Source: Bacillota bacterium
GTDB taxonomy: Bacteria; Bacillota; Sulfobacillia; JAJYWN01; JAJZPE01
DNA: 55,050 nucleotides
Direction of reading: 5' to 3'
Assembly: GCA_021811325.1 (NCBI GenBank)
Contig: JAJZPE010000005.1
Location: 1-55,050 of the forward strand
How positions within the stretch are numbered: position 1 is the first letter of the stretch; each line of letters begins with the position of its first letter. A model generated the notes under the pieces. That model was not told where the DNA came from, did not search any database, and saw only the letters and a list, made by a program, of their open reading frames with translations. Positions 4,790 to 47,669 of the stretch are shown here, piece by piece. The translations under genes were made by a program, and so were the position numbers.

Positions 4790-5824
4790 TCACGCGCGGG
4801 GCAGCATCGCCTCGACTTCAGGGATGGCCACGCCGCACCGGTCCAGAAGCAGCTGGTAGATCCGGCCCATCTGGCCCATGGCCTGCCTCATGTTCGCCTC
4901 GGCCCCGGGGCGCATGCCGAGCTTGTCGGCCCCGTGGGTGAGCGACACGGAGACGCTGAAGAGCCGCCTCAGGCACGCGAAGACCTCGAAGAAGTCGAAG
5001 TCCGTGATGGCGTAACCGGCCTTCCGCTCATAGTCCGCGCGGACCAGCGACCAGACCTCGTCCCCGCCCATCAGCAGGGAAGTCCAGGCCAGGTCGACCC
5101 GCGGGTCCGAAAGGCCGGCCGAGGTCCAGTCGATGACGTGGGGCCGGCCATCTTGCATCAGGATGTTGTTGGCGTGGAAGTCGAGGTGGATGAGCGCGGG
5201 CGGGCGGCGCCCGACGGAGACGGCCCGGCGTTCGAGCCAATCGATGACCGGGCCGAAACCCGGCTGGCTGAAGCGCTCAGTCCAGCCCCTGAGGGGCCCG
5301 GACCAGCCCGCGTCGAGGTTGCTCAGCGCGAAGAGCGGCGCTTCGGGCTCGAAGTGGCGCGCGTCCAAGGCATGCAGGTCGGCCAGGAGTTCGGCGAACA
5401 TGGTCACCAGGCCGCGCCGGGCTTCGGGGGCCGAACAAAGGAAGAGGGCGTCGGCCGTCGGGCCGTTGATCTTCTCCATGACGAAGGAGGGGCGGCCGAG
5501 ACCGGAGCCGCCGGCATCGATGGCGTAGACCCGGGGCACCGGGTAGCCCAGTCGGCCGAGCTTTTCGAGGATGCGGTACTCCCTGGCGCATTTGCCCGCC
5601 GGGTCCGACTCGACCGACCCGGGGAACATCCTCAGGATGAGGTCCCGCCGCTCGCGGCCGTCCGCGGATTCGACGGTGAAGGAGTAGACTTCAGACTCCC
5701 ACCCATCGGTGAGCCGGGTCAGGCCCGTGACCTGGCCGCCGCCCCCCCAGGGGAGGGCCGACCGGCAGAAGCGGGTCAGTTGGGTGGACAAAACGGTCGT
5801 CTCTGGCTCCATGCGAATCTTCAT
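4790..5824 (-). CDS. APH-family phosphotransferase (small-molecule kinase), substrate unknown
   Basis: A 344-residue protein kinase-like fold of the aminoglycoside phosphotransferase family (PF01636). It shows an N-lobe with WESEVYSF, the catalytic loop LIHLDFHANNILM (Asp as base, Asn for metal) and a metal-binding VIDW where kinases have DFG. The family also includes homoserine, choline, macrolide and hygromycin kinases, so antibiotic resistance cannot be claimed. The start is uncertain: ATG 5824 directly abuts AAGGGG, while ATG 5812 lies twelve bases beyond it. It converges with arsM-arsN2 (21-base gap). No partner gene indicates a substrate. Confidence 0.75.
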   Translation of the reverse strand: MKIRMEPETTVLSTQLTRFCRSALPWGGGGQVTGLTRLTDGWESEVYSFTVESADGRERRDLILRMFPGSVESDPAGKCAREYRILEKLGRLGYPVPRVYAIDAGGSGLGRPSFVMEKINGPTADALFLCSAPEARRGLVTMFAELLADLHALDARHFEPEAPLFALSNLDAGWSGPLRGWTERFSQPGFGPVIDWLERRAVSVGRRPPALIHLDFHANNILMQDGRPHVIDWTSAGLSDPRVDLAWTSLLMGGDEVWSLVRADYERKAGYAITDFDFFEVFACLRRLFSVSVSLTHGADKLGMRPGAEANMRQAMGQMGRIYQLLLDRCGVAIPEVEAMLPRA

Positions 5825-5945
5825 CCCCTTGCCCCGGCCACGCCAAGCCGGATCCGAATGAACCTCTATTCGACCGTCCCCGTGCGGCTGCCTCCTTTAG
5901 CGCCGAGGACGCAAGCCTCGGAGGGAACCCCGCCCAGCAAATCAA

Positions 5946-40983: not shown

Positions 40984-44483
<3,500 letters not shown>

Positions 44484-44500: not shown

Positions 44501-44749
44501 TCACAGGCCGGCCAGGACCCGCCGGGTCACGGTCACGTCGAGGTGGCGCGGCCCCGCGGCGTCGGAGATGATGCAGGGGAGGTTGACGTTGGTCACCGGC
44601 CGCCGTTCGAGGTCGGCCAGCACCCGCCGGGCGGCGTCGAGCAGCTGGCCCCAGGCGCGCCGGTCGCCCCGCAGGTCGATGCCCTCGCGGGCCTGGAACT
44701 CGCCGGCCAGGTAGGCGGCGACCGCCTCGAGGCTGGGCCCCTCGCTCAC
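44501..44749 (-). CDS. 82-residue protein matching only the DnaK nucleotide-domain subdomain IIB region
   Basis: The GTG at 44749 has GGAGG six bases upstream (TTG 44755 is the alternative). The product reads like one continuous slice of DnaK: YLAGEFQAREGIDLRGD, a helix LLDAARRVLADLERR, then VNLPCIISDAAGPRHLDVTVTRRVL. E. coli DnaK has GIDLRNDPLAMQRL, NLPYITADATGPKH and VTRAKLESL at roughly residues 230-306, which is subdomain IIB. Structural positions (GIDLR, NLP, DA-GP-H, TR) are kept. By my alignment, the Glu, Lys and Ser that hold adenosine in the EKAKIELSS helix are replaced by Arg, Leu and Glu/Arg. No P-loop, ATPase or substrate domain is present. It sits where grpE-dnaK would be. It is either a retained microprotein or a dnaK remnant; the intact frame, start and ribosome site favour expression. 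Confidence 0.75.
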   Translation of the reverse strand: MSEGPSLEAVAAYLAGEFQAREGIDLRGDRRAWGQLLDAARRVLADLERRPVTNVNLPCIISDAAGPRHLDVTVTRRVLAGL

Positions 44750-44790
44750 ACCCAAGACCTCCTCGAGCCCTTCGCCGGTGATTCCCCGCC

Positions 44791-44824
44791 GGGGATTCCA
44801 CCGCCGGGGATTCCACCGCCGGGG
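44791..44824. repeat. 15-base tandem repeat between chaperonin and DnaK-like frame
   Basis: GGGGATTCCACCGCC occurs twice head to tail (44791-44805, 44806-44820), followed by a further GGGG. A degenerate third copy (GATTCCCCGCC) precedes it from 44780. It lies between the chaperonin stop and the start of the 82-residue frame and may mark the deletion or insertion junction where dnaK was lost. Confidence 0.7.
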
Positions 44825-44828
44825 CGGT

Positions 44829-46424
44829 CTAGAAGCTCTTCGAGAAGTCCTCGCCGGATGCGCCCGAGGAGCCCGCGGCGGCCAGGTCCTTCTGCTCCTT
44901 CATCTTGATGATCGTATCGATCCTCAGGATGGCCTCGGCGATCTCGCCGGCGGCCTTGAGGGCGTGGATCTTGACCAGGGCCGGGTCGACCACGCCGAGG
45001 TCGAGCATGTCGGCGATGTCCCCGGTGTCGCAGTTGACGGCCAGCGAGTCGCGCTTGCGGCGGGTCTGCGCGGCGATGACGTCGCCGACCTTCTCCAACG
45101 GGTTGAAGCCGGCGTTGCCGACGATCTGGGCCAGCGGCTTCTTGAGGGCCTCGACGACGCAGTCGAGGCCGTAGACGCTCATCCCCTTGGCCCCGTCGCG
45201 GTGCTTGGCCAGCTCGCGCCCGACGGCCAGCTCGATGGCCCCGCCGCCGGGGACCACCCCGGCTTTGAAGGCCACTTGGACCGACGAGGCGGCGTCTTTG
45301 GCGATGCGCTCACGCTCGCCGACGACTTCTTCGGTGGCCGCGCCGACGAGGATGGTGGCCATCGGCTTCCCTTTGCCGCCGACGATGCGGACCTGCTCGA
45401 GTTTCTCATCCTCGTAGACCCGGTCGGCCCGGCCAAGGTAGCGCTCAATCTCGTCGGGCTCCTTCTTGAGGGCCGTCCGCTTGACCATCCTGGCCCCGCT
45501 GTGCTCGGCCGCCTTGCGGAGCTCGCGTGACGAGACACGGCTGAGGACCAGGACGCCGGCGTCGGTGAGCAGTTCATCGGCCGCGTCGTCGACCCCGCGG
45601 TCGACCAGGACGACGGTGACCCCGAGGCCCACGAGCTTCCTCAGGTTCTTCCGGAACTCGTCCTGGAGTTCCATGTAACGGGCGAAACCGGCTTCGGTCG
45701 AGAGGGCCTCGTCCTCGATCTCCTCAGGCTCAAGGGCGTCGTCGACGATGAGGACGCGGGCGTCCCGGATGTCCTTCGGCATCTGCTTGTTGAGGCGTTC
45801 CTTGTCGATGATCACCCCGAGGAAGACCTCGTTCTCCGCGCCCTCCTCGGAGATGACCGTGTCGGCCAGTTTGAAATGGGTCTCGACGAGCTTCTCGGGC
45901 CCGATCATCCGGGCCGCGCCGACCACCAGGTCGGCGATGTCCTCGTGCTCGCGGCCGGCGATGAGGGCCACCCGCCGGAGGAGCGGGTCGTCGAGGCCGT
46001 TGACCTTGATGGCCTTTTCCTTGATGAGGTCGACGGCCTTCTTGATACCGTAGCGGACGCCGTCGATGACCCGGGTCACCGGGACGCCGCGGGACACCTG
46101 GTTGACCCCCTCTCCGAGGAGCGCGCCGGCCATGATCGTGGCCGTGGTCGTCCCGTCGCCGACCTCCTCCTCCTGGGCCTTGGCGGTGTTGATGACCATC
46201 CGGGCGGCCGGGTGGTTGACCTCCATGCGGGTCAGGATGGTGATGCCGTCGTTGGTGATGACCACCTCGCCGAAGCGGTCGACGAGCATCGTGTCGAGGC
46301 CCTTCGGCCCGATGGTGCCCTCGACCGCCGAGGCGATGGCCCGCACGGCGTTGGCGTTGGTGAACAGCGCGGCCAACCGCTCGTCGACTTCAGAGCCGCT
46401 GGAGATCTGCTTGACGTTGGACAA
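44829..46424 (-). CDS. Archaeal-type (Group III) chaperonin
   Basis: 531 residues of the thermosome/CCT kind, not GroEL. GTIGPKGLDTMLVDRFGEVVITNDG (36-60) and GDGTTTATIMAG (89-100) form the ATPase site; VPGGGAIELAVGREL and VVDPALVKIHALKAAGEIAEAILRID close the equatorial domain. The apical domain runs through GVIIDKERLNKQMPKDI and contains the helical protrusion (DEALSTEAGFARYMELQDEF) that serves as built-in lid in Group II, so no GroES is needed. The GGM tail of GroEL is absent. Group III chaperonins in hsp70 operons are known from Carboxydothermus and form a 16-mer that refolds proteins with ATP. TTG start behind AAGGAGG, 40 bases after hrcA, hence under CIRCE/HrcA control. Confidence 0.95.
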   Translation of the reverse strand: MSNVKQISSGSEVDERLAALFTNANAVRAIASAVEGTIGPKGLDTMLVDRFGEVVITNDGITILTRMEVNHPAARMVINTAKAQEEEVGDGTTTATIMAGALLGEGVNQVSRGVPVTRVIDGVRYGIKKAVDLIKEKAIKVNGLDDPLLRRVALIAGREHEDIADLVVGAARMIGPEKLVETHFKLADTVISEEGAENEVFLGVIIDKERLNKQMPKDIRDARVLIVDDALEPEEIEDEALSTEAGFARYMELQDEFRKNLRKLVGLGVTVVLVDRGVDDAADELLTDAGVLVLSRVSSRELRKAAEHSGARMVKRTALKKEPDEIERYLGRADRVYEDEKLEQVRIVGGKGKPMATILVGAATEEVVGERERIAKDAASSVQVAFKAGVVPGGGAIELAVGRELAKHRDGAKGMSVYGLDCVVEALKKPLAQIVGNAGFNPLEKVGDVIAAQTRRKRDSLAVNCDTGDIADMLDLGVVDPALVKIHALKAAGEIAEAILRIDTIIKMKEQKDLAAAGSSGASGEDFSKSF

Positions 46425-46464: not shown

Positions 46465-47511
46465 TCACCGCCGCATCTGGCGGGTGAGGACGTCGGTCAA
46501 TTGCCCGGAGACGTAGCTGACGACGGACATGACATGGCCATAGCGCATGCGGGTCGGGCCGAGGACGCCGACGGCCCCCATGACCCGCTCGCCGGCCCCA
46601 TAGGCGGCCATGACCAGGCTGCAGCTCTGCAGCTCCTGATAGGGATTCTCCTCGCCGATGTAGACCTGCACGGGGCCGGCTTGGGGTTCGCTGAGCAGCG
46701 CCGACACCAGGTGCTCGCGCTCCAGGAAGCCGAGCAGGTCGCGGACGACGTCAAGGTCGCCGAAGTCCGGCTGGCTCAGGATGTTGGCCGTGCCGCCGAG
46801 GTAGACCTTGTCCTCCGCGTCGGCCTGCCCGGCGCGGCCGAGGGCGTCGAAAATGGTGCTGATGAGGCTCCGCCGGCCCGTCGACCCGGCGTTCAGCGAG
46901 CGGACGAAGCCGCGGGTCAGCTTGCCGAGGATCATCCCGCGCAGAATCTCGTTGAGGCTGCGGGAGACCCCGGTGAGGTCCTCGTCGGTGAGGCCTTCGG
47001 GGAGGTCGATGACCCGGTGCTCGACCAGGCCGACGTCGGTCGAGAGGACCATCAACAGGCGGTCGCCGGGCAGCCGGACCAGCTTGAGGTCGCGGAAGAC
47101 GGCCCTGGCGTAACGCGGCCCGAGGACCATCGCCGTGTAGCTGGTGGCCTCCGAGACCAGCCGGGCCGTCTGCTGGATGAGGGTCTCAGCGTCGCGCGGG
47201 CTGTCGTAGGCCTCCCTTATCCAGCGGGCCTCGACGTCCTCGAGGTCCTCGGGGTGGGTGAGGGAGTCGACGTAAAAGCGGTAACCCCGGCTGGACGGGA
47301 CGCGCCCGGCCGAGGTGTGCGGCTGCTGCAGGTAGCCCAGGGTGTCCAGCTCGGCCGTCTCGTTGCGGATGGTGGCCGGGCTGACCCCCAGGTCGTGGCG
47401 GGCGAGCAGAGCCAGGGAACCGACCGGCTCACCCGTCCGGATGTAGTCCTCGACCAGGGCCATGAGGATGGCCCGTTTCCTGGGGTCCAGGCGTTGCGCC
47501 GTCTCAGGCAT
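46465..47511 (-). CDS. hrcA: Heat-inducible transcription repressor HrcA
   Basis: 348 residues from an ATG preceded by GGAGGGAAGAGG. N-terminal winged helix (DPRKRAILMALVEDYIRTGEPVGSLAL, SPATIRNETAELDTLGYLQQPHTSAGRVPS), then the GAF-like domain and the C-terminal end RYGHVMSVVSYVSGQLTDVL. HrcA binds CIRCE, needs chaperonin help to stay folded, and is titrated during heat shock. In most bacteria GroEL stabilises it; here the co-encoded Group III chaperonin could do so. First gene of the operon with CIRCE in its leader, so autoregulated. Confidence 0.97.
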   Translation of the reverse strand: MPETAQRLDPRKRAILMALVEDYIRTGEPVGSLALLARHDLGVSPATIRNETAELDTLGYLQQPHTSAGRVPSSRGYRFYVDSLTHPEDLEDVEARWIREAYDSPRDAETLIQQTARLVSEATSYTAMVLGPRYARAVFRDLKLVRLPGDRLLMVLSTDVGLVEHRVIDLPEGLTDEDLTGVSRSLNEILRGMILGKLTRGFVRSLNAGSTGRRSLISTIFDALGRAGQADAEDKVYLGGTANILSQPDFGDLDVVRDLLGFLEREHLVSALLSEPQAGPVQVYIGEENPYQELQSCSLVMAAYGAGERVMGAVGVLGPTRMRYGHVMSVVSYVSGQLTDVLTRQMRR

Positions 47512-47602
47512 CCTCTTCCCTCCCGCGGGGCTCGGGTGAGCCGTTCGTCGCGCAAACCTTAGTGGAGCCTGCATTTGGCAAATCGTCGGACGGTTCTTCA
47601 CT

Positions 47603-47629
47603 CTAGCACTCCCGCCCGGCGAGTGCCAA
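47603..47629 (-). promoter_or_regulatory. CIRCE operator
   Basis: TAGCACTC at 47604-47611, nine bases, GAGTGCCAA at 47621-47629. The consensus is TTAGCACTC-N9-GAGTGCTAA, so only the outer bases differ. The spacer is pure G/C. It lies just downstream of the hrcA promoter -10 box, covering the transcription start, as expected for HrcA repression. Confidence 0.93.
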
Positions 47630-47640
47630 CCCTAAGATAG

Positions 47641-47669
47641 AACATAGCATCACCAGGAAACCCTGTCAA
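47641..47669 (-). promoter_or_regulatory. Sigma-A promoter of the hrcA heat-shock operon
   Basis: On the minus strand: perfect TTGACA (47669-47664), 17-base spacer, TATGTT (47646-47641). Start near 47634, within reach of CIRCE. Confidence 0.88.

Follow-up and report, generated by a model that had tools for sequence, protein, structure and literature searches.

The window analysed here is a stretch of 55,050 nt (positions 1 to 55,050, forward strand) of contig JAJZPE010000005.1 from a Bacillota bacterium of the class Sulfobacillia (GCA_021811325.1). On its minus strand, at 44501..44749 with the stop codon included, lies a stand-alone gene whose 82-residue product corresponds to one subdomain, IIB, of the Hsp70 chaperone DnaK. 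The frame runs from a GTG at 44749 to a stop at 44501-44503, and a Shine-Dalgarno sequence, GGAGGT (44757..44762, minus strand), is read 7 nt before the GTG. The GTG was taken as the better start because a TTG two codons upstream would leave a Shine-Dalgarno spacing of only 1 nt. The Pfam HSP70 profile (PF00012) matched over its positions 229-298 only (E 1.6e-8, 33.7 bits against a cut-off of 20.6, scored on the 84-residue version from the TTG), and a search of PDB proteins matched E. coli DnaK 237-306 at E 4.8e-12. The predicted structure aligned to DnaK 226-308, with the two helices, the two-stranded sheet and the closing helix superposing. For comparison, IIB spans residues 229-306 in Hsc70 numbering (PMC2940730). 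Profile, PDB and predicted-fold matches thus agree with a first-pass annotation of the sequence, which had read the frame as one uninterrupted piece of DnaK with its own GTG start and GGAGG and had proposed comparing its predicted fold with IIB.

The protein is homologous to DnaK over residues 226-308, with the same predicted fold and the core residues kept, and is confidently predicted to fold on its own. It differs from DnaK in being a short protein without subdomains IA, IB and IIA, the linker, the substrate-binding domain and residues E267, K270 and S274. Only one of the four subdomains of an Hsp70 nucleotide-binding domain is present, and its 46 bits fall far below the NCBIfam DnaK cut-off of 822.55 (TIGR02350). 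Because these defining features were tested and found absent, the product is not an Hsp70 chaperone; it is an Hsp70-derived single-subdomain protein. A chance frame was ruled out by the homology (E 1e-8 to 1e-12), by the relatives and by selection on the gene, both described below.

As the annotation had it, the gene lies between a chaperonin gene and dnaJ; the operon is headed by hrcA. Upstream is the gene for a Group III (archaeal-like) chaperonin of 531 residues (44829..46424, minus strand; PF00118, E 4.9e-111), whose best natural PDB match is 5x9u (E 1.2e-144), the Group III chaperonin of Carboxydothermus (PMC5635000); thermosomes match at E 1.6e-72 or weaker. The spacer between the two genes holds three 15-nt direct repeats (44772..44815). 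Downstream is dnaJ (43323..44462, minus strand), with profile matches to a J domain with its HPD motif, a zinc-finger domain and a C-terminal domain; we chose the ATG at 44462, and the listed frame begins at a TTG at 44474. The hrcA heat-shock repressor gene (46465..47601, minus strand; PF01628, E 5.4e-59) is given from its first listed start, and its true start is probably further in. Ahead of it are a CIRCE-like inverted repeat, the HrcA operator (47603..47629; 2 mismatches to TTAGCACTC-N9-GAGTGCTAA, a match arising in 0 of 100 shuffles), and a sequence pattern resembling a sigma-70 promoter, TTGACA-17-TATGTT with an extended TG (47641..47669, minus strand). These elements suggest that the operon is controlled by HrcA and co-expressed under heat stress. 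An assembly split of a normal dnaK at the locus was rejected, since the flanking genes are intact and the arrangement is repeated in 12 other genomes.

The distribution of the gene was surveyed in 154 genomes of the class, one per species and many of them multi-contig drafts. With a profile of the short IIB proteins (minis), 13 short frames ranked first (E 3.1e-26 or better); genomes with further matches were searched again, and this added an IIB gene in genome G056 (E 1.2e-9 with a profile built without it). Eight families (f1, f2, f6, f14, f15, f23, f27 and f46) are represented among the 14 genes, so that restriction to one genus is excluded. All 14 frames are open across the whole match, with borders each time near those of IIB. 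The remaining profile matches in the class lie in frames of at least 347 residues, G017, G097 and G098 show weak second matches (E 2e-4 to 7e-3), and eight of the 154 genomes have no match at all, DnaK included. Two other Hsp70-related frames were seen. G031 (L340 3956-4300) has 115 residues of a dnaK paralog that span the IIB part and keep the Glu, Lys and Ser; the 8 kb read there shows no further recognisable part of DnaK, and the fragment was not counted as an IIB gene. G030 (L342 3017-4903) carries an additional Hsp70 frame, divergent and 629 residues long.

Thirteen of the 14 genes, from seven of the eight families, immediately follow a Group III chaperonin gene, at spacings of -11 to +79 nt from the chosen starts, four of them overlapping it. 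Next comes dnaJ in 13 loci, in one of them after an intervening transposase gene, and the contig of the fourteenth ends first; hrcA lies ahead in 13, the contig ending in the sole exception. The inserted gene, found in G039 of the same genus (L042 8408-9541, minus strand), is an IS605-type OrfB/TnpB gene (PF01385, PF07282) between dnaJ and an intact IIB gene. Wherever the contig of a chaperonin locus includes hrcA, a CIRCE accompanies it (12 of 12), as it does in G056. The G056 locus (L341 1-2222, minus strand) reads perfect CIRCE-hrcA-grpE-IIB-dnaJ, with an overlap between the stop of grpE and the start of the IIB gene (TGATG). No Group III chaperonin match was found in G056, and an absolute tie of the IIB gene to the chaperonin is thereby broken. 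The G056 protein is identical to database entry P0041, labelled Leptospirillum sp. Group IV 'UBA BS', a label that may come from a mislabelled metagenome bin.

Among the 44 class genomes with a chaperonin, the slot behind it holds the IIB gene in 13, grpE or grpE-dnaK in six and an unrelated frame in two; in 21 the J domain begins 3-84 nt behind the chaperonin frame with nothing between, and in two (G017, G149) the contig ends. The annotation had proposed looking for the frame in relatives: it is intact in 14 genomes of eight families, but many related class genomes do without it, including G029, the rest of whose family has it. As a control, we used the 110 class genomes without a chaperonin. 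In 63 of them hrcA lies apart from dnaK (G034 and G076 possibly through contig breaks), in 35 the two are adjacent, and 12 without an hrcA or dnaK match were left out. The IIB gene occurs in 1 of the 63 versus 13 of 36 chaperonin-bearing genomes (Fisher 4e-6, kinship ignored), the hrcA locus itself having been read in G056 alone among the 63. In family f47 a frame of ~280-300 residues stands between chaperonin and dnaJ (L174 of G148, 5051-5887; L172 of G146); the one match of the G148 frame, to a nucleotidyltransferase (PF01909), is weak and below the cut-off. Families f12 and f13 show a tightly coupled chaperonin-dnaJ pair with no DnaK remnant: in each of the 12 genomes whose contig has both genes, 8 nt separate the end of the chaperonin frame from the J-domain motif.

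In the phylum sample a chaperonin was found in 127 of 398 genomes. Outside the class, 87 of 124 chaperonin loci were read downstream: grpE is next in 87 of 87 and dnaK follows in 86, one contig ending first. Among the matches listed from a contig scan with a general chaperonin pattern, 10 of 80 loci (L050-L058, L080) have high-scoring Group III frames with the operon, eight with grpE-dnaK, L054 with grpE and without a dnaK hit, and L055 ending in the chaperonin. The chaperonin of L192 (G059) is extremely divergent, with an end branch of ~5 in the chaperonin tree, yet it sits in an hrcA-cpn-grpE-dnaK group. A phylum search with the IIB profile yielded, among the matches listed (mostly normal DnaKs), no short frame besides that of the window. 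Across the chaperonin loci read and the phylum matches listed outside the class, the reduced operon was seen in this class only. Searching 5.8 billion database proteins gave ~38 clusters of comparable short proteins; those that carry a name are listed as 'molecular chaperone DnaK', 'Hsp70 family protein' or hypothetical. One of them, P0027, is identical to the G145 protein and comes from 'Clostridiales bacterium UBA8153' (NCBI: Clostridiales Family XVII, Bacillota). Hits running into other DnaK parts or belonging to frame-broken DnaKs (P0034-P0037, P0043, P0044, P0046-P0058) were not counted as minis, and 14 of the 21 new sequences from a third protein-database search were read.

Residue conservation was counted in 30 minis (near-duplicates of the 13 genomic ones included, G056 not) and 38 DnaK IIB domains. 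The minis keep F244, G249, D251, D255, A258, A265, L273, L283, P284, H295 and L296, with P284 and H295 invariant and present in G056 as well. Of the adenosine contacts, E267, K270 and S274, each found in 38 of 38 DnaKs, remain in 3, 0 and 1 of the 30 minis, and the window protein has R41, L44 and E48 in their place. The counterparts E268, K271 and S275 of Hsc70, at an offset of one, are named as nucleotide-binding (PMC2940730). The kept fold positions and the replaced adenosine-contact Glu, Lys and Ser, as first described from the window, are confirmed, and with the nucleotide contacts lost the use of ATP by the short protein appears unlikely. G056 is more divergent (D251, D255 and A258 changed) and lacks the same contacts.

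The same positions bear on the possibility that the free lobe is a decoy or rheostat for GrpE, which would occupy GrpE, slow nucleotide exchange on a DnaK encoded elsewhere and prolong client holding in heat shock. We ranked this GrpE-binding peptide, after raising our estimate for it, nearly as likely as the docking adaptor discussed below, and still as tentative. All four types of nucleotide exchange factor examined contact IIB (PMC2940730, PMC4753570), and grpE was found in 41 of the 44 chaperonin-bearing class genomes. The loop 290-295, described as the GrpE signature (PMC8215388), is largely present in the minis: G292 in 25 of 30 (83%), P293 in 24 (80%), H295 in all 30 and K294 in none. 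G056, whose IIB gene directly follows grpE with stop and start overlapping, keeps P293 and H295. On helix 9, however, Q260 falls from 97% of DnaKs to 0 of 30 minis and R261 from 100% to 1; E264 falls from 92% to 3. The G004 lineage (with P0025, P0026 and P0030) is also without the helix-9 residues. R258, R261 and R262 of Hsc70 are named as exchange-factor contacts, the latter two corresponding to DnaK Q260 and R261 (PMC2940730); the third, position 257, varies among DnaKs and is uninformative. E264 and E267 form two cleft salt bridges (PMC8215388), and both acids are lost in most minis. Moreover, lobe I, which GrpE also contacts, is missing here, no grpE was found in the gene-bearing genome G028 (~91% complete), and a GrpE decoy leaves the enrichment behind the chaperonin unexplained. 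The GrpE binding suggested in the annotation is thus favoured by the kept loop and by the grpE overlap in G056 and disfavoured by the loss of the helix-9 contacts and the cleft acids.

Selection was assessed by Nei-Gojobori dN/dS (omega) in six pairs, from one trio each of families f1 and f15. The IIB gene gave 0.24, 0.33 and 0.41 (f1) and 0.17, 0.22 and 0.14 (f15). In the same pairs dnaJ gave 0.27, 0.17 and 0.30 (f1) and 0.06, 0.05 and 0.07 (f15), and the chaperonin gave 0.19, 0.16 and 0.19 (f1) and 0.06, 0.04 and 0.06 (f15). In each of the four pairs tested of these six, 0 of 2000 randomisations reached a pN/pS as low as observed. The IIB gene is under purifying selection, constrained but less so than its neighbours in most pairs, with omega above that of the chaperonin in 6 of 6 pairs and of dnaJ in 5 of 6. 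The dN/dS comparison called for at the outset therefore gave values below 1 rather than neutral ones, and with 14 genomes of eight families the gene is, as had been proposed, not a random deletion remnant. A decaying relic, a dnaK shrunk by deletion whose leftover frame drifts with little or no function, would account for the higher omega, the long branches and the absence of the gene from 21 of the 44 chaperonin-bearing genomes and from G029. We consider it improbable: the frames stay open with borders near IIB each time, the randomisations do not reach the observed constraint, two residues are invariant in all minis and G056, and the fold is confidently predicted. In several loci the frame overlaps the stop codon of the gene before it or starts close to that codon, which would suit a leader frame that only couples dnaJ translation to the upstream gene and has no role as a protein. 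As selection acts on the amino acids, and in 21 genomes dnaJ follows the chaperonin immediately, with no IIB frame, this is very improbable.

The dnaK of the source genome lies in two contig pieces, its start on C166 (495 residues to the contig end) and its C-terminus on C196 (PF00012), where an Hsp20-like gene and then grpE follow; no other DnaK match was found on the contig of the IIB gene. The second locus is seen whole in G037, G038 and G039 as dnaK, (in G039) hsp20, grpE and a second dnaJ, and no CIRCE-like site with up to four mismatches was found in these three stretches. A DnaK frame of at least 380 residues is present elsewhere in all 14 genomes bearing the IIB gene. The earlier idea of a relic of a lost dnaK must be corrected accordingly: loss from the genome is excluded by the C166 and C196 pieces, dnaK and grpE occupy a second locus, and 'lost' is right for the operon only. 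Compared with the Group III operon hrcA-cpn-grpE-dnaK-dnaJ of, for example, Paenibacillus, Aneurinibacillus and Peptococcaceae, the order, the hrcA head, the chaperonin and dnaJ are the same; here, however, grpE is gone and dnaK is reduced to IIB. Because the loci read outside the class have grpE next and then dnaK, the full operon is likely the ancestral state, and we infer that the IIB gene is all that remains of the operon's dnaK, by internal reduction.

In a tree of 56 IIB sequences (18 minis and 38 DnaKs; G056 was left out, and four DnaK loci without IIB in the stretch were dropped), 17 of the 18 minis form a clade that excludes every DnaK (99/93). The remaining one, from G004, sits on a very long branch among the DnaKs. 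The topology test does not reject a single clade of all 18 (p-AU 0.298), and long branches meet in this tree, making the grouping tentative. The deep forks of a chaperonin tree by a quick method (42 of the 44 class genomes) are open as well. On it the chaperonin-linked IIB state requires six changes, at least two forced by starred branches, which tentatively indicate repeated loss, parallel reduction or both.

We propose that the lone IIB, predicted to fold by itself and probably all that is left of the operon's dnaK, serves the Group III chaperonin as an ATP-independent docking adaptor, a reading to which we give a probability of about 0.33. It was chosen because the lobe lies mostly beside the chaperonin in an apparently HrcA-controlled operon, its nucleotide contacts are gone and the hairpin is kept. 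Full DnaK would contact the chaperonin through IIB during client handover; when the ATP-driven Hsp70 came from the second locus, the contacting lobe would have stayed in the operon. On the lid or apical domain of the chaperonin, the free IIB could then sit in the site used by DnaK, or bridge it, with the kept hairpin around H295 and the rebuilt helix-9 face as its docking surface, and G056 might represent a survivor lineage whose lobe uses another partner, GrpE or DnaJ. Group III chaperonins sit inside the DnaK operon, and cooperation between DnaK and the chaperonin has been suggested in the absence of prefoldin (PMC5635000, PMC5220055).

Several observations weigh against the docking adaptor. 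The IIB gene of G056, its start overlapping the grpE stop, persists without any Group III chaperonin match, and for this reason we lowered the probability from 0.4. The gene is also dispensable, 21 of the 44 chaperonin-bearing genomes having dnaJ directly behind the chaperonin. The sole pointer to the chaperonin is genomic linkage, the position of 13 of 14 genes directly behind it; the loop that the minis retain coincides with the GrpE signature (PMC8215388), and with the deep forks of the trees unsettled, parallel reductions may have occurred. Distance-matrix coevolution, run on 11 of the then 13 genomes (G028 and G145 omitted for contig ends), gives the chaperonin no advantage over dnaJ (partial r 0.522 versus 0.519). 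These near-equal values, and the dnaJ that follows in 13 of 14 loci, G056 among them, would fit a free IIB that helps the operon's DnaJ pass clients on without DnaK. We raised our estimate of this slightly and place it just behind the decaying relic as improbable, since the J-domain contacts of DnaK (R167, Q378 and the beta part of the substrate-binding domain) fall outside IIB (PMC8215388) and many genomes with dnaJ right behind the chaperonin manage without the gene.

Among the open-access papers listed in our searches, subscription papers lying outside them, we found no description of a stand-alone IIB protein and nothing relevant on a truncated DnaK or on Hsp70-chaperonin contacts; in 2017, tests of contact between DnaK and a Group III chaperonin were said to be under way (PMC5635000). 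HscA and HscC, Hsp70s that do not use GrpE, offer a partial parallel: the cleft salt-bridge acids are lost in most minis as in HscA (PMC8215388), but HscA and HscC have the 290-295 loop deleted or its signature absent, whereas the minis keep the loop and lack the rest of an Hsp70. The prefoldin and Hsc70-CCT handover of archaea and eukaryotes provides a working analogy, in which a small or Hsp70-derived factor serves a thermosome-type chaperonin (PMC5635000); no relation between prefoldin and the short IIB protein is claimed. The broader claim, that an Hsp70 has been reduced to the lobe by which DnaK grips the Group III chaperonin, giving a new ATP-independent docking factor under heat-shock control, is doubtful, and we rate it slightly below the GrpE-binding peptide. 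If it is true, the bacterial surface through which Hsp70 and chaperonin touch would be revealed by this protein. A working protein would mean that a single lobe of a much-studied chaperone can act by itself and without ATP. As a fragment of DnaK retained by nature in the operon, it would also be a small, testable probe for the sites on Hsp70 that contact the chaperonin, GrpE or DnaJ.
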